This document shows, one piece after another, positions 1 to 10,809 of a DNA stretch of 10,809 nucleotides; within the stretch, counting starts at the first letter, position 1; each line of letters begins with the position of its first letter. The stretch is from Peptococcaceae bacterium BRH_c23 (GTDB taxonomy: Bacteria; Bacillota_B; Desulfitobacteriia; Desulfitobacteriales; Desulfitobacteriaceae), in assembly GCA_000961805.1 (NCBI GenBank), contig LADV01000153.1, positions 1 to 10,809 on the forward strand, given 5' to 3'. The notes under the pieces were generated by a model. The model was given only the letters and a program-made list of their open reading frames with translations, made no database searches and had not been told where the DNA came from. A program made the position numbers and the translations under genes.

Positions 1-262
1 GGTCATCCTACTTGCCTCCCTGTGAACTCGACCGTCTTAACTAATTTGGCTTTTTCCATTTATCGGGCTTTCTCACATCTTGCAAAGTTACCCACCAAAC
101 CAGCCAGCATCGGTTCGCTTTCGCTCCGTTCCACAGTTTGCCTTCAGACCCTCCGGACCCCTCCTCACGGACGACGCCCTGTCTGTTAGCTAGTGCTTCC
201 GAATGGAATCGGCGCACAGAGGAACTTTAATCCTCCAATACAAATAGAACTGCCCGGCGCAC
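1..262 (-). mobile_element. Group II intron, 5' part (domain I), truncated by the window edge
   Basis: Read on the minus strand from 262, the sequence begins GTGCGCC, the usual 5' start of bacterial group II introns. It continues with recognisable domain I landmarks: a degraded form of the GTGAAAGTCC element (around 233-223), the stretch CTAGCTAAC then AGGGCGTC, GGTCTGAAGGCAAAC, and GGAGCGAAAGCGAACC. These follow the same order as in IIC-type introns such as the Oceanobacillus one, recalled from memory rather than aligned. The intron body, any reverse transcriptase/maturase ORF and domains V-VI lie beyond the left edge. A perfect hairpin lies 3 nt upstream of the insertion point, which fits the IIC preference for sites after stem-loops. 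The AAAGTTCC in place of AAAGTCC may mean mild decay. I see no protein-coding gene here. The identification is fairly sure; the class assignment is inference. Confidence 0.8.
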
Positions 263-3317: not shown

Positions 3318-4748
3318 TTAGCGGAGGTAACCGGTTGGATTGACATGACTTCCATTAATAATCACTTCTAAATGTAGGTGTGAACCAGAAGAGCGACCCG
3401 TTGAGCCTACCAAGCCAATTGTCTGACCTTTTGAAACAGAATTTCCTGCAGAGACCAGCAGCTTAGAAGCATGAGCATAACGAGTCATAACTCCATTTCC
3501 ATGATCTAAGAGAATCGTGTTACCATAGTTCCCATTCCATCCTGCACTTACAACGGTCCCTGATCCAGAAGCTACAAAGGGATCTCCTTTATCACCGTCA
3601 ATATCAAGACCAGTATGGAACTCCGATCCCCGATATCCATAATAAGACGTAATTCTTCCCCTTAACGGCCAAACAAGTCCCGAGGTGATGCTTCCACTAC
3701 CCCGAGAATAGGCAACTGCAACATTAGTACGTTGAGGTCCTTTCTCAATCACTTGAGAGACTGCTTCCTTTAATACCTTTTCATCCTGAACAGTCTGAGA
3801 AACCACTTTATCATTTTTCTGAACGTAAGAATATTGAACTTCCTTTTTTCCGTCACTTCCAGCTTGTTTGACAGTCGATTGCCCAGACGTTAAGCTCGTA
3901 TTCGTCTTTGTCACTACTTCAAAGGGAATTGTCTCAGTTTCAGTTCGAACGCCTTTACTCACTACCGTTATGTAGGGTGTAACCTTGTCCAAGACAATTT
4001 TTTGACCTAGTTTAAGTATGGTATCCTCAGTGGTTCCTGGGTTACTAGCTAGTACTTCTTTTGTTTTCATGTCGTTCTTTCGAGCAATAAGCCACCAAGA
4101 ATCATTAGCCTGAACTGTATATTCTACCTTTTGTAAATTTCCTTGTTTTAGTTTGTCTAAGGCCTGCTCATAGGAAGTGACCTGGTCCAAGGGGACTTCC
4201 ACGGGTTGCGTCTCCACTTCATCTTCAAAGGAGACTGAGGAAACTTGGTTTTTATCACTGGGTTGAGAAATGTAATCTTGAAAATCTTTAAGTAATTTCT
4301 CTCCATCTTCTGCTTTAGCCAGAACTAAGAGAGGTTCCTTGTTAACCGTTAACATGACTCCATCAACATAGTAAGAAATGTCCTCAGCTAACGTTTCTTT
4401 AGAAAGAGCACGATAATCAGCATTCTTAATTCGAACAGTTGAGTACGTAATATCATCATGGGTCTTAGCCTCAGTAGCCAGGGGAGCTCCCTTTTCAGAA
4501 AGAATCTGATTTATCATTTCTCCAGCTTTATCTTGATTAGCGACAAGACCAACCTTTTCGCCATTTACGACAACATAGACTGCTGAAGTTGTAGAATTAA
4601 GATAAACCATTCCACTTCCCATCAAAAGTAAAAGAACGATGGATCCTCCTATGACTTTTGGAGATTTCCATGATTTGTTCTTCTTTGTGAATATCTTAGC
4701 TTTTAGGATTTCGAGATATCTCATTGGTAAATCTCCGACCTTTTTCAT
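3318..4748 (-). CDS. Membrane-anchored LysM-G5-M23 peptidoglycan endopeptidase
   Basis: A 476-residue cell-wall hydrolase. A short basic cytoplasmic tail (1-31) leads into one membrane helix (about 32-50), so the remainder faces outward. Residues 55-205 form an ectodomain of the type often seen before G5 domains. A LysM-like module follows (about 208-254, with NDSWWLIARKND). A G5-like segment spans about 260-338. The C-terminal M23 domain runs from about 360 to 474. Its zinc site is complete: H378 and D382 in HTGLDID, H426 in RYAHAS, and H457/H459 in HLHLE. It should therefore cut peptide cross-links in peptidoglycan. The start ATG at 4748 follows AGGGGGG by 4 nt; an in-frame ATG at residue 9 with GGAG upstream is a possible alternative. 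It is monocistronic and could act in growth or sporulation; the sequence does not decide. Confidence 0.92.
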   Translation of the reverse strand: MKKVGDLPMRYLEILKAKIFTKKNKSWKSPKVIGGSIVLLLLMGSGMVYLNSTTSAVYVVVNGEKVGLVANQDKAGEMINQILSEKGAPLATEAKTHDDITYSTVRIKNADYRALSKETLAEDISYYVDGVMLTVNKEPLLVLAKAEDGEKLLKDFQDYISQPSDKNQVSSVSFEDEVETQPVEVPLDQVTSYEQALDKLKQGNLQKVEYTVQANDSWWLIARKNDMKTKEVLASNPGTTEDTILKLGQKIVLDKVTPYITVVSKGVRTETETIPFEVVTKTNTSLTSGQSTVKQAGSDGKKEVQYSYVQKNDKVVSQTVQDEKVLKEAVSQVIEKGPQRTNVAVAYSRGSGSITSGLVWPLRGRITSYYGYRGSEFHTGLDIDGDKGDPFVASGSGTVVSAGWNGNYGNTILLDHGNGVMTRYAHASKLLVSAGNSVSKGQTIGLVGSTGRSSGSHLHLEVIINGSHVNPTGYLR

Positions 4749-4926: not shown

Positions 4927-7362
4927 TTAAATAAGTGGCAAGCAAAAAAGAGACCAACCTCTACTGGAAAGCTTCTCTCCCAATTTATGATCCGTCGTGC
5001 TAAATACCACCTGTCTGGTAGGGGATAGTTTATAAAGATATTCTGTAACTTCTCTCCAAAAATCCTTATCCTCTATCTTTGCCATCCCAACAGAGAAGAA
5101 CAAGGGGGTCTCGGTGTTGTCACGAAGCACTAATTGGGCGACGGCCATACGATATGAAAAATAATTCATCTTCGCTAACGTCTCGGCTTCTATGGCCTTT
5201 GGAGTCGACGCAGAGAAACTATGCTCAAAAATCCACTGTTTTTCTATACTGAGTATCTTTTCGTGCTTTGTTTGCCATTCGCGCCAGGATAATTCCAACA
5301 AGATATGCGCGTCATCTAAAGCATGACGTAAGTCCTCATACGCCATCCACTGATGTTTCATTGTCTCTATCTTCTTCTCCAGAACAGCTAACGACTGAGA
5401 TGTCTGGGTACTCTGAAGGCGTTGTTTGGCAACTGCCAAACGCTGGCGGATTTCCATTTGTTCTATATGCAAAGTAGACATTTCTGCCAACCTTTTTTCA
5501 TTCGGAAGACGTTCTTCGCGTTCCAATTCTGCCAAAGGTTCTAAAACCTTGGTGAGTTGTTCCATATTTCGATCACCAAGTAAACCATAAAACCTCTTGG
5601 ACAACTCGGCAACTGCTCTCTCCATCTCATCTTTATCCCTCAGTAGACTAGCAACCTTTAATACTGCTGCAAGTACTTCCTCTCTGTCCGTCGAGGGTAT
5701 TCGCCAATTCTCTATCTTTTTGCGCAGTTGTTCCGCGCATTTGAGTAATTCTATTTCTTCTTTTTGTTGTTTTTCATGTTCAAGTTGTAACTCATTAAGT
5801 TCTATGGCTAGCTGATGTTTTCTTTGTCGATAGTCTTCCCATCCGCTCAGCCATTCTGAAAAATTTTTGGTATGGACTGCAGTAAACGCTTGTTGCAACA
5901 CTTCATTGCGCGCACGCACAATTCTACGCAGATTTTCCTCTTGGCTCACTTTGTTTTGGTGCTTTTCTAGCTGTTTCTTCACGCTTTCAACCCGTTTTTT
6001 TTGATCTCGAAATTCCTTCAGTTGATTCGTGAATTCCTGATAGTTTGAGGCATGGTATCGTTTGTAGTAATCTTGAAGACGAGACGATAACATTCCTGCA
6101 ATACCTGTCAAACCTAACCATTTACGCATCGTTCGATCCAGAGTGTTAGCAAGTTTGGAGCTTCGCCACAGTTGTAAATACTTTTCTCTTTGGGCAATTC
6201 TAATTTCATCTACCTCTGTAACATCGTCCATTACTACCAAATTCGCCAATCGAGTACTTTCTTGTGAAAAAATTACTTGAAGCTTATCAAGTCCACGTTT
6301 TGTAATCATGAGTTTATTCAGTTTCTCCTGCGCTACATCCCTAGCTTCTAGCGACATTCTCAGAATCTGTTCTTCGTCCTCCGACACTCCCATATATCCC
6401 GATGTTTGGAGGAAATTTTGAATCTCCGCAATTTGTCTGGTGCGCAGCTGAGTATCAGCAACTAAGAGATCTACGTTTTTCTGGAGATATGCCCACTCCA
6501 TGCACTCTTCACGCAAGCTCTCAATTAACGCCCAATCGACACATGATTCAGAAGAAAAGGCCAACAAATTTGTCTCCGTACCTTGCAGCCGTTCTGCCAA
6601 CCGGTTTAACTCATCTTGCAGTCGGCGTAACTCTCGAAAATCAGGGTTTTGATAATGAACCTCTATGCGCTTCTGAATATTGGCAGATGACGTAATTTTC
6701 TCAGTTAAGATCATTTCTTTTTCCAATAAATTTTTTATATTAATTTGAAGCAAGCGTTGATTGTCTTGTTGGCGGTAAGCTATTTCCCATTCATGCCTTA
6801 GAGTATCATACTCGGTCTTAACAAGGGCCATACTCCCACTTTGTTCTTTCACTCTCTTTTGCGCCCCCACAATGGAAGCCCGCACATTGGTTAAGGAAAG
6901 TCCCTCATCCCCTCCTTGGCGAAGGTTGTTAATGCGCCGGAGTAAATAATCATTGTGGTCATTTTCCGGCCAATCCACTATCCCTCCCCGCAGAAAATCT
7001 TGAAGCTGTACCTTGAATACATACTCTCCAATAGTCATTGATTCCGGTAGCTTAACAGGCTGTTCAGTTTCATCCATTAAGGTTGAAAGCTGCTCCAGTT
7101 TATCATCCTTTTGGATGAATTCATGACGCAGATAAAAGTGATGGCTTTCTCCAGACATCCACACTTCGATTAATCCATTTCGGTTTTGCCCTAAGCATGG
7201 CGTAGACTTTTTTTGATCGTAGAATAGGTTCAGCAGTAAGTCACTAAACAATTTTTGAATACTTTTATCCTGAAATAAGAGCAGAAATGGGCCTGAGGAA
7301 AATATCCAGTCGACATTCCCCAGGCCTACTAAATTTTCAATTCTGATTCGGTCAATCCTCAT
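4927..7362 (-). CDS. YhaN/SbcC-like coiled-coil protein with degenerate ATPase motifs
   Basis: An 811-residue homologue of the YhaN (SbcC/Rad50/SMC-type) family, recognised by its N-terminal strand pattern (MRIDRIRIENLVGLG), a long charged coiled coil (about 165-700) and its position directly after a YhaO-like gene. In active relatives the head begins with GPNEAGKST; here the matching place reads LLLFQDKSIQKLF (27-39), with no glycine loop. The C-terminal head has lost the LSxG signature (MNYFSYRMAVAQL instead). It has also lost the Walker B acidic pair: PLFFSVGMAKIED (753-765) stands where PLILDDALxNFDD is expected. No other P-loop and no CxxC zinc hook occurs anywhere. It is shorter than B. 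subtilis YhaN (about 960). The start ATG overlaps the upstream gene by 11 nt and follows GGGGA. It probably serves as a structural partner rather than an ATPase. Family placement is good; loss of activity is inference from motifs. Confidence 0.75.
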   Translation of the reverse strand: MRIDRIRIENLVGLGNVDWIFSSGPFLLLFQDKSIQKLFSDLLLNLFYDQKKSTPCLGQNRNGLIEVWMSGESHHFYLRHEFIQKDDKLEQLSTLMDETEQPVKLPESMTIGEYVFKVQLQDFLRGGIVDWPENDHNDYLLRRINNLRQGGDEGLSLTNVRASIVGAQKRVKEQSGSMALVKTEYDTLRHEWEIAYRQQDNQRLLQINIKNLLEKEMILTEKITSSANIQKRIEVHYQNPDFRELRRLQDELNRLAERLQGTETNLLAFSSESCVDWALIESLREECMEWAYLQKNVDLLVADTQLRTRQIAEIQNFLQTSGYMGVSEDEEQILRMSLEARDVAQEKLNKLMITKRGLDKLQVIFSQESTRLANLVVMDDVTEVDEIRIAQREKYLQLWRSSKLANTLDRTMRKWLGLTGIAGMLSSRLQDYYKRYHASNYQEFTNQLKEFRDQKKRVESVKKQLEKHQNKVSQEENLRRIVRARNEVLQQAFTAVHTKNFSEWLSGWEDYRQRKHQLAIELNELQLEHEKQQKEEIELLKCAEQLRKKIENWRIPSTDREEVLAAVLKVASLLRDKDEMERAVAELSKRFYGLLGDRNMEQLTKVLEPLAELEREERLPNEKRLAEMSTLHIEQMEIRQRLAVAKQRLQSTQTSQSLAVLEKKIETMKHQWMAYEDLRHALDDAHILLELSWREWQTKHEKILSIEKQWIFEHSFSASTPKAIEAETLAKMNYFSYRMAVAQLVLRDNTETPLFFSVGMAKIEDKDFWREVTEYLYKLSPTRQVVFSTTDHKLGEKLSSRGWSLFCLPLI

Positions 7363-8524
7363 CGAATCCCCGTCCCTGCCCCAGCGCTGTTAGTCCAATT
7401 TTTTGTACTAGTTCCCAGTATTGAGAGTTCTCCGAGCCCTTTACGTCAACCAAGTTCTTTTGTAATTTATGCACGAATATTTGGGCTAGAGTAGGATAGC
7501 CTTCACTGTGCTTCACTCCTGAAACCCCTCGTGATTCAAATTGAGATTGAGACGGCGATTTTCGTTCTAAGGAGAGAACTTCAGCGAAGCGAAACTGAGT
7601 CTCGAGAAGATTTTTTACAGTTTGTAGCATTCCTTCAACTTCGAATAATGTTCCTGATAATTTAAACCTAAATAAATTGTTCTGTCGATCTTCTAGGTTA
7701 GTTTCTGCCAGTAAATTCGCTGAAACATTTTCAAAATCTGCTTGGGATTGAAAGGTAAGATCCTTATCAATATAACTCCGTTGTCCAAGTTCTCGGAATT
7801 CAAATCGAGAGGATTCTTTCCCTATCTCACCTAGCAGCACACCATGAGGACCGTTATCCTGAAAACCTCTGGCTTCAGGCGCACCACAATCAGCCCAGAA
7901 TGTTTCCCCGGCTTGCTGAATCCCGCTCCAAACTTCTCGCTTTCCTAAGGCTAAGTAAGCTAAACCACTTGAAGCAATCTCCTCTTGCCGAATCGGAATA
8001 AACCCTTCAGTATTCTTCTCAGAATCCACCTCAGCATGGAGAAGCATCAGCTGAAGTGTACCGTCACTCGTCGTTTGAAAACCGTTTAGAAAAGGTCCTT
8101 CCTGATGATACGTTGTCCAGCCCTCTCCAAAAACTATGAGGTTATGGGAAGGAATTTTTATACTACTAACACCACTTGAAAATATATGCACGTTCTTCGG
8201 CCAAACCGCTAGGCGATAAGCAGACGTTAAAATCAGAGGGTCCCTCCTACCTGGAGTTATAAAAATTCTCGCCCCTTCTAACTGAGCAAACGACCTAGCT
8301 ACCCGTTCGACGGTCTCTTTGCGCACATACTCTTGTTCAAATAAATCTCCGGTTATAAAAAGAAATTCAATTTTTTCCGATCGACAAAGCGAGAGAACCG
8401 CTTCAAAGGTCTGCCAGAGATCTTTATTTCGCAGAGCCGTCCAGGTCTCCGGTCCATCCCAGGAGGGGCTGTCAAAACGAAATCCTGCACACTGTAAGAA
8501 ACGAACACACGAAGCCATAATCAT
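7352..8524 (-). CDS. YhaO/SbcD-like calcineurin-fold phosphoesterase homologue with degraded metal site
   Basis: A 390-residue member of the Mre11/SbcD/YhaO phosphoesterase family by layout, but most metal-binding residues are replaced. Motif I, normally FLHAADLHLDSP, reads FLQCAGFRFDSP, so the DxH pair is G14 and R16. Motif II keeps the GD (59-60) of TGDLFE. Motif III, normally GNHD, is GRRD (92-95). The motif IV histidine is kept in LLHAEVD (H163). Motif V, normally GHxH, is GKRE (194-197). Only one Asp and one His of the usual set remain, so nuclease activity is unlikely. The C-terminal 170 residues match a capping region and partner contact only by position. I chose the ATG at 8524 because GAGGTGA lies just upstream; a GTG at 8530 would overlap that site. 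It overlaps the YhaN-like gene by 11 nt and follows the lipoprotein gene by 75 nt, probably in one transcript. Confidence 0.8.
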   Translation of the reverse strand: MIMASCVRFLQCAGFRFDSPSWDGPETWTALRNKDLWQTFEAVLSLCRSEKIEFLFITGDLFEQEYVRKETVERVARSFAQLEGARIFITPGRRDPLILTSAYRLAVWPKNVHIFSSGVSSIKIPSHNLIVFGEGWTTYHQEGPFLNGFQTTSDGTLQLMLLHAEVDSEKNTEGFIPIRQEEIASSGLAYLALGKREVWSGIQQAGETFWADCGAPEARGFQDNGPHGVLLGEIGKESSRFEFRELGQRSYIDKDLTFQSQADFENVSANLLAETNLEDRQNNLFRFKLSGTLFEVEGMLQTVKNLLETQFRFAEVLSLERKSPSQSQFESRGVSGVKHSEGYPTLAQIFVHKLQKNLVDVKGSENSQYWELVQKIGLTALGQGRGFDED

Positions 8525-8599: not shown

Positions 8600-9658
8600 T
8601 CAATGAAATTCGACACTGTTTTTTAGATCTACTCTAAAGAACTCACCCTTGTTCATCATATAATGCCCAGACGAATATGGACTTCCTTCAATCGTTATAT
8701 AGACTTTGTCGACCCCGTAATATGTTCCTAGTGTATTGGTGATACTCTGTAAAATCATGCTTTCATAACCAGAGCCTGCGTTCATTTCGCTAACCAATTC
8801 CTTAGTAAAATCAATATAAACCACTTCGTCTTTATTTAAGTACAAACTCTTAATCTTAACATTCGGGCCCAAAACCTTGGATATATCCCCTTTAGGCAGT
8901 TCTTTAAATGTCTTCTCAAACACAATGTTTGTCAGATCATTCGTCATAAAAGAAAGCTTCTTATTAAGATAATTGAGCTTATCATTATTTAGATTTGGAT
9001 AAAAGAATTTTACCGTTTGAGTTAATGGAACATTATTCTCTACTTTGCTTAAAGCAGAGTAAACTACATATCCATCTGATGTGAAAATTGTTTTTACGAG
9101 ACCAATATTTGGGGCATAATAATCTTGGATCTTATGATCCTTACCCTCGGTCGTAACCTCTAGGGTTTTATAAGTACCCGAAGGGGTGGTTATGTCAACC
9201 TCGACATTAGTAATTGATCTCTTTCTATCATCTGCCAAGACCCACGAAGTTCCTTTTTCAAGCGGTTCTTTCAAGAGAATTTCCTGATAATTACTCGGAC
9301 TATTGGTTATATTCTCTCGATAATAGGCTTCCCCTCTTACTATTGGTTGGGTCAGCTCACCATCTTTGTTCTCTAGCACCTTAATCATCTCAGTTCCACC
9401 GTTATTAGACCTTATCTGAACACGATTTCCTGCGATATAATCAACCATAACGTTGTATGAAGCATATTCATTCCCTTCTCCCTCATACACATAGTTCGTA
9501 TTTTCTTTGTAGGCAAAATAATCTTGAATGGTAAGTGGTTGCTTAGTTTCTTGTGGTTTAGTTTCCTCAACAGGTGGCTTAATATCGTTCTTATTAGAGC
9601 AACTGCTTAACAGAACAAGCGTCAATAATATGCTAATAACAATGAATAACTTTTTCAA
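8600..9658 (-). CDS. Lipoprotein with C-terminal GerMN domain
   Basis: A 352-residue membrane lipoprotein. It starts with a type II signal peptide (MKKLFIVISILLTLVL) and lipobox LSSC, with C20 as the lipid-modified residue, followed by a Pro/Glu/Lys/Thr-rich linker (21-42). Residues 43-205 are a beta-rich region of the kind with a YYAPNIGLVK segment, seen in many Firmicute lipoproteins. Residues about 214-345 fit the GerMN domain found in sporulation and germination proteins (GerM-like), including VKFFYPN at the beginning and a VYIDFTKEL strand. The start codon is TTG, fixed by a strong AGGAGGGG 5 nt upstream. It is the first gene of a probable operon with the YhaO/YhaN-like pair. A role in the cell envelope or spore coat/cortex assembly is likely from the family, but the actual partner is unknown. 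Confidence 0.88.
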   Translation of the reverse strand: MKKLFIVISILLTLVLLSSCSNKNDIKPPVEETKPQETKQPLTIQDYFAYKENTNYVYEGEGNEYASYNVMVDYIAGNRVQIRSNNGGTEMIKVLENKDGELTQPIVRGEAYYRENITNSPSNYQEILLKEPLEKGTSWVLADDRKRSITNVEVDITTPSGTYKTLEVTTEGKDHKIQDYYAPNIGLVKTIFTSDGYVVYSALSKVENNVPLTQTVKFFYPNLNNDKLNYLNKKLSFMTNDLTNIVFEKTFKELPKGDISKVLGPNVKIKSLYLNKDEVVYIDFTKELVSEMNAGSGYESMILQSITNTLGTYYGVDKVYITIEGSPYSSGHYMMNKGEFFRVDLKNSVEFH

Positions 9659-10686: not shown

Positions 10687-10809
10687 TTGTCTCAGTTTCT
10701 TAACGATTTCGTAGTCGGAATCGATGTTTCCTCCGAATTCTCGATTGTTGCTATGCTAGCACCAACCGGCGAACTTATTCGTAAACCGTTTAGGATCGAC
10801 CACAATCCT
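10687..10809 (+). CDS. IS110-family transposase, N-terminal 41 codons (cut by window edge)
   Basis: The visible product contains VVGIDVSSEFSIVAML, the opening strand of the RuvC-like DEDD domain of IS110 transposases. D13 would be the first catalytic acid, and a PTGELIRKPFRI strand follows. IS110 enzymes recombine DNA under guidance of a bridge RNA. The TTG at 10687 is chosen because it lies 10 nt after GAAAGG and gives the usual short lead before GIDVS. The frame stays open upstream to an ATG at 10618, but that has no ribosome-binding site and would overlap the structured leader. The remaining coding sequence is outside the window. Confidence 0.8.
   Translation, partial: MSQFLNDFVVGIDVSSEFSIVAMLAPTGELIRKPFRIDHNP

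Follow-up and report, generated by a model that had tools for sequence, protein, structure and literature searches.

The Mre11–Rad50 complex is a DNA-break repair machine that is thought to be driven by ATP and to cut DNA. Among its described forms are SbcCD and YhaO–YhaN (SbcE), the latter from the Bacillota and the closest counterpart of the gene pair described here, which lies on the minus strand at positions 4927..8524 of a 10,809-nucleotide stretch of Peptococcaceae bacterium BRH_c23 (contig LADV01000153.1; the whole analysed stretch is called the window). The pair consists of a pseudo-Mre11 gene (7352..8524; 390 aa) encoding a YhaO-like metallophosphoesterase (MPE) with dismantled catalytic metal sites, and a pseudo-Rad50 gene (4927..7362; 811 aa) encoding a YhaN/SbcE-like ATPase relative without a P-loop, signature or Walker B acids. 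Both active sites are thus dismantled in a pair of Mre11 fold and Rad50/SMC fold, and it is probably a YhaO–YhaN (SbcE-type Mre11–Rad50) complex that has turned non-catalytic and been kept by selection among related anaerobes. The computed observations behind this reading are the folds, the loss at both sites in the relatives examined and the grouping in one clade. Purifying selection acts on the two genes, their overlap is conserved, SbcD occurs beside them, and in some lineages the subunits are fused and the Walker-A lobe is deleted.

The pair resembles YhaO–YhaN in the order of its genes, which overlap or closely adjoin, in both folds and by a profile match; canonical YhaN (12 examined) also lacks the CxxC hook, and the MPE has intact proteins as its closest kin, which in some sources are labelled DNA repair exonuclease or SbcD. 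It differs in that the clade to which it belongs has lost the catalytic motifs. The Mre11 fold with its cap and the Rad50/SMC head with coiled coil are also shared with SbcCD and Mre11–Rad50, but here neither subunit has an intact active site, and most of the same genomes carry a separate SbcD.

Fused Mre11/Rad50 proteins are already published. Mimivirus R555 is reported to carry both Walker motifs, A and B, and almost the full set of nuclease residues (PMC3175470). The fused chains related to the window pair have the same order, MPE and then Rad50-like part in one chain, but they lack those motifs, and the Walker-A lobe is gone in 8/9 fused or reduced loci. The B-subunits of eukaryotic replicative polymerases have a near-Mre11 fold with inactivated nuclease motifs, which the cited passage reads as conversion to a scaffold (PMC4996933). 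They pair with a polymerase, whereas the window MPE pairs with a coiled-coil ATPase relative that is apparently dead too; by analogy, the pair may have undergone a scaffold conversion resembling the one proposed there. Pseudonucleases are reported, in the text cited, to have arisen repeatedly in another family (PMC8097288). In line with the first-pass annotation, which knew of no described system of this kind, no description of a dead Mre11–Rad50 pair occurs among the matches listed in the open literature (best 20 of 312 and 10 of 1,449), a limited absence.

Active sites of the YhaO–YhaN-like pair

Neither window gene passes a Pfam cut-off, and the MPE leaves only a faint NCBIfam Mre11 trace, scoring 20.9 bits where the cut-off is 434.6. 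The Mre11 fold and capping domain are present in a model of the fused relative at locus L022, from which the fold of the window MPE is taken; the joint alignment behind this model contains a few stray residues. The partner has the Rad50/SMC arrangement, in which N- and C-terminal lobes build an ABC-type head and a coiled coil lies between them. Its closest relative is a Desulfosporosinus burensis protein (90%), which makes Desulfosporosinus the probable source of the window. Comparison with canonical YhaN gives no more than E 0.47 by direct BLASTP but 97.3% by hhalign; the case for homology is made by profiles, gene order and fold.

Eight MPE positions were compared, in columns set by alignment with intact relatives and with motif letters that we take to be those of Mre11. 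The window reads G-R-D-R-R-H-K-E where canonical proteins have D-H-D-N-H-H-H-H, and a complete two-metal Mre11/SbcD active site is absent. Former motif I (DxH; 8477..8485) is now G14-F-R16, former motif III (GNHD; 8240..8248) is R93-R94-D95 and former motif V (GHxH; 7934..7942) is K195-R-E197, while Asp60 of motif II (8345..8347) and His163 of motif IV (8036..8038) are kept. All eight canonical residues occur in 85/90 canonical relatives (a further match, P0195, was excluded for length); of the remaining five, three do not extend over the two N-terminal columns and two carry a single substitution.

The losses recur across relatives. Of 165 MPE homologs found, 120 are listed and 118 remain after setting aside the intact P0119 and P0120; among those that have the residue, motif I Asp and His are each found in 0/114, GNHD Asn and His each in 0/115, and the second GHxH His in 0/118. 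The genome loci (44, of which 43 are readable; one contig occurs twice, as L026 and L105) likewise retain none of four residues, namely motif I Asp, the Asn and His of motif III and the second His of motif V (0/43 each), and a single locus (L018) has the motif I His. On the question of whether catalytic residues are always lacking, the outcome thus favours the first-pass proposal. With the same losses in 118/120 listed homologs and 44 loci, a sequencing error or pseudogene is ruled out as their source, and a chance open frame is ruled out by the homologs together with the ratio of nonsynonymous to synonymous substitution rates (dN/dS).

In the ATPase relative, the former Walker A or P-loop (7252..7275; residues 30-37) reads FQDKSIQK, and the former signature and Walker B block (5068..5163; residues 734-765) aligns with the Walker B block of canonical YhaN. 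The GxxxxGK[S/T] pattern is missing from the P-loop block of every aligned row having that block, and the Walker B acid pair from all 54 rows, which comprise the window and 53/56 homologs (P0170, P0171 and P0176 were left out for length). The Walker A, signature and Walker B motifs of Rad50/SMC proteins are therefore not in place. Matches to the Walker A pattern occur in 3/56 proteins (P0152, P0170 and P0171) and, judging by their letters, lie within the stalk or the MPE part; locus L029 has a real P-loop. The coiled-coil stalk (5218..6840; residues about 175-715) lacks the CxxC zinc hook of Rad50 in 54/54 aligned rows. The best conserved stretches of two-gene members lie outside the nucleotide pocket, for example at residues 141-200 and 661-700.

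The two frames overlap by 11 nt (7352..7362), with the ATPase ATG inside the 3′ end of the MPE gene. An ATPase ATG at the 11-nt overlap is found in 29/29 two-gene loci with both frames readable, 11 of which have further possible starts nearby; L107, where the ATPase frame is broken, is not countable. The description of two open genes overlapping by 11 nt, each without its catalytic residues, is borne out by this count and by the alignments. The C-terminal helices of the pseudo-Mre11 (7367..7495; helices 331-345 and 349-368 in the fused-relative model) are conserved columns and correspond to what we take to be the Rad50-binding place of canonical pairs.

Descent and distribution

The degenerate copies form one clade with support 100/99 in a tree of 39 degenerate and 5 active rows from which contig-edge fragments were left out. 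In a quick tree of 21 degenerate and 90 canonical rows, the split between the two has a support of 100 in the SH-like approximate likelihood ratio test (SH-aLRT), and its stem measures 0.97 changes for each column. The nearest row to the clade is the intact P0119 (SH-aLRT 98 in the quick tree; 85/61 in the careful smaller tree), and no intermediate between canonical and degenerate MPEs is seen in the trees. P0119, the closest intact relative, has Asp in place of the GNHD Asn. Descent from canonical YhaO is indicated, and a YhaN-type SMC-like gene directly follows the MPE gene as in the YhaO–YhaN lineage. Neither tree shows working and dead copies mixed in close relatives, so the free mixing named by the first-pass annotation as fatal to its proposal does not occur within the clade. 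A single conversion that predates the diversification of the Desulfosporosinus / Gracilibacter / Dehalobacter group is the simplest account.

A YhaO-like gene is present in 43/73 genomes of the order around genome G002, 41 of them with the degenerate form (some as contig-edge fragments) and 2, G052 and G053, with both genes canonical. A search with the canonical protein returns the same 43 genomes, none with both kinds, and a YhaO-like gene is absent from nine additional genomes of the class. Of the 45 genomes in the family of G002, 26 are matched by the ATPase profile and 28 by the MPE; G040 and G043, the two that have the MPE alone, carry it truncated at a contig end. Co-occurrence of the two genes, which the first-pass annotation asked about, therefore holds. 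Within the genus, 26/29 genomes have the degenerate MPE, and the three without it are assemblies of 2.2-3.0 Mb, so that incompleteness may explain the absence.

SbcD scores above its family cut-off in 27/29 genomes of the genus and beside the degenerate MPE in 25/26, which answers in favour of the first-pass proposal the question of coexistence with a separate canonical sbcCD. Of the 23 genomes reached via loci, which include the canonical G023, 21 have it above cut-off. SbcC-like matches occur in 63/73 order genomes, none above a model cut-off that only 1/14 control genomes passes, and several adjoin SbcD on the same contig. The pair is present and SbcD was not found in G019 and G021 (1.8-1.9 Mb) and G041 (4.6 Mb), possibly through incompleteness. 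Coexistence in nearly all of these genomes would fit a regulatory decoy of the catalytic SbcCD that forms mixed complexes with SbcD/SbcC partners or competes for them, as would the retention of both head lobes and the C-terminal helices in two-gene members. The window MPE, however, scores 13.3 bits with the SbcD model against a cut-off of 77.65, its nearest intact relatives are YhaO-like, and the three genomes with the pair and no detected SbcD fit a decoy poorly; this alternative is unlikely.

An open frame of 1309 aa in G032 (G032:C1:95692-99531) has both SbcC and SbcD matches and is a probable SbcD-SbcC fusion; the same genome has an ordinary SbcD elsewhere.

Selection, fusion and candidate function

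Both genes have dN/dS of 0.15-0.28 in 12 pairs, by pairwise Nei-Gojobori counts in which the pairs share loci and are non-independent; one ATPase dS value is near saturation. Neighbouring genes in the same comparison have values of 0.07-0.11 (M23), 0.13-0.22 (lipoprotein), 0.14-0.23 (c7 gene), 0.08-0.17 (cytochrome b), 0.12-0.49 (LapA) and 0.02-0.06 (ECH). SbcD has 0.09-0.15 where the pair has 0.19-0.28 (four pairs, same genomes). The pair is constrained at a level resembling some of its neighbours and looser than that of SbcD. Absence from sister strains combined with relaxed selection, the other outcome that would have counted against the first-pass proposal, is not what is seen: absence within the genus is limited to 3/29 genomes and dN/dS is far below 1. 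That proposal was of persistence with a new, non-enzymatic function; retention and dN/dS bear out the persistence, and the new function is what we infer from it.

In several lineages the two proteins are one chain. The ATPase part starts near residue 41 in L008 and the database proteins P0170 and P0171, and about the first 130 ATPase residues are gone in L017, L018, L022, L023 and L102. A profile of the N-terminal lobe finds nothing in 8/9 fused or reduced loci and residues 32-132 only in L008, whereas a profile of the remaining ATPase part matches all nine. Nine unfused loci have the N-terminal lobe in full (5, three of which are rows of the profile itself) or in part (L107, L108, L115 and L116). 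The most reduced form (L103 6822-8513, L104 5117-6832 and P0118) is about 565 aa of pseudo-Mre11 and two stalk arms in which both ATPase lobes were not found; it is still under constraint (L103/L104 dN/dS 0.27). Fused rows occupy two or more separate positions in the tree, and more fusions, or later splits, are possible.

The pseudo-Mre11 body and the two stalk arms are kept longest, whereas the nucleotide lobe is lost and, in the most reduced form, the entire head with it; this is the reverse of a motor and fits a scaffold or tether. The pseudo-Mre11 and the coiled-coil stalk would form one body that binds and bridges with no cutting or pumping. Going by where the ancestor acted, its likeliest partner would be DNA or a further protein of DNA repair. 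We put at about even the chance that the pseudo-nuclease, clamped to the stalk, is an ATP-independent tether for DNA or a repair protein, in some lineages as a single headless chain. If true, the pair is a natural separation of the structural from the enzymatic role of Mre11–Rad50, and it makes testable how much of the work of the complex is tethering or signalling as opposed to cutting. The SbcC or exonuclease labels on some of these genes are misleading.

Several observations weigh against a selected, non-catalytic complex. Three metal-ligand positions often survive in the degenerate listed homologs (motif II Asp in 77/115, motif IV His in 112/118 and the first GHxH His in 101/118), so a residual metal role is possible. 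A swapped chemistry, in which these three ligands form a one-metal site that still reacts and the pseudo-Rad50 is a mere clamp, draws on the 65/118 relatives that keep all three and on the near-constant motif IV His. Every row with residues at these places nevertheless lacks the motif I Asp, both of the GNHD ligands (Asn and His) and the second motif V His, the first motif V His is Lys in the window, motif II is Asn in 38/115 relatives and motif IV is Pro in 5/43 loci (one contig counted twice), all of which makes such a site quite improbable.

Other such points concern constraint. Compared within the same genome pairs, the dN/dS of the pair exceeds that of SbcD by a factor of 1.4 to 2.8, and its constraint is therefore weaker than that on the catalytic relative; the ATPase gene of G057 (L107 6150-8415) has a stalk deletion and a frame break, with its MPE still open; and 30/73 order genomes are without a YhaO-like gene, so that the pair is dispensable in the wider group. 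(The G057 kin resemble the Dehalobacter protein P0104, and the frames of the related G056, G058 and G059 are open.) These differences in dN/dS, the one broken ATPase, and the fact that some lineages have lost the Walker-A lobe in part or completely, and in the end the entire head, could also be read as slow decay of a dying YhaO–YhaN relic whose head went first. Such a relic is very unlikely given dN/dS of 0.15-0.28 in each of the 12 pairs, no stops within the listed MPE matches of 43 order genomes, retention in 26/29 genomes of the genus and conserved residues specific to the clade. The last are 39 positions (W22, W28, W37, W136 and W210 among them) conserved in at least 95% of 106 degenerate MPEs and present in no more than 4/16 canonical ones, and are new constraints, to be taken with caution as the 16 are a small set, mostly Bacilli.

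The remaining adverse points concern partnership. The correlation between distances of the MPE and the ATPase relative (r 0.96; 378 pairs, 28 loci) counts in favour of the complex, but shared descent alone would give the same. A conserved third partner is ruled out, the lipoprotein and M23 genes beside the pair each being common to only 9/30 loci compared, and no convincing LexA-like box ties the pair to a pathway in 38 loci.

Neighbouring genes and regulation

Upstream of the pair is a Germane-domain lipoprotein gene (8600-9658, minus strand) and downstream a LysM-G5-M23 peptidase gene (3318-4748, minus strand); the loci sharing either are from Desulfosporosinus or its kin. The cluster c7 protein, encoded a few genes upstream in 9 loci (L001, L002, L004 and others), has an N-terminus that is putatively formamidopyrimidine-DNA glycosylase-like on sequence grounds.

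The search for a LexA-type box upstream used what we take to be the box consensus. The candidate was rejected: 33/38 loci are within shuffled expectation (>0.1 of shuffles) and the other five are at 0.03 to 0.1. The clade thereby differs from the yhaONM cluster of Bacillus pumilus, for which the cited passage gives an SOS link (PMC3896406). A sporulation gene is unsupported, since the neighbours vary and the order genomes without the gene are numerous (30/73). For a defence system there is no convincing PADLOC match: the MPE has one weak match (E 0.0056) to an endonuclease effector, and the ATPase relative and the fusion L022 have none at E 0.01.

Two features lie at the window edges. An open frame at 10702-10809 (plus strand) runs off the end; its 40 residues have no Pfam match, and by eye their start is IS110-type transposase-like. 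At the opposite edge, positions 7-174 (minus strand) match Group II intron D1-D4-3 (Rfam RF02001) with 81.3 bits.

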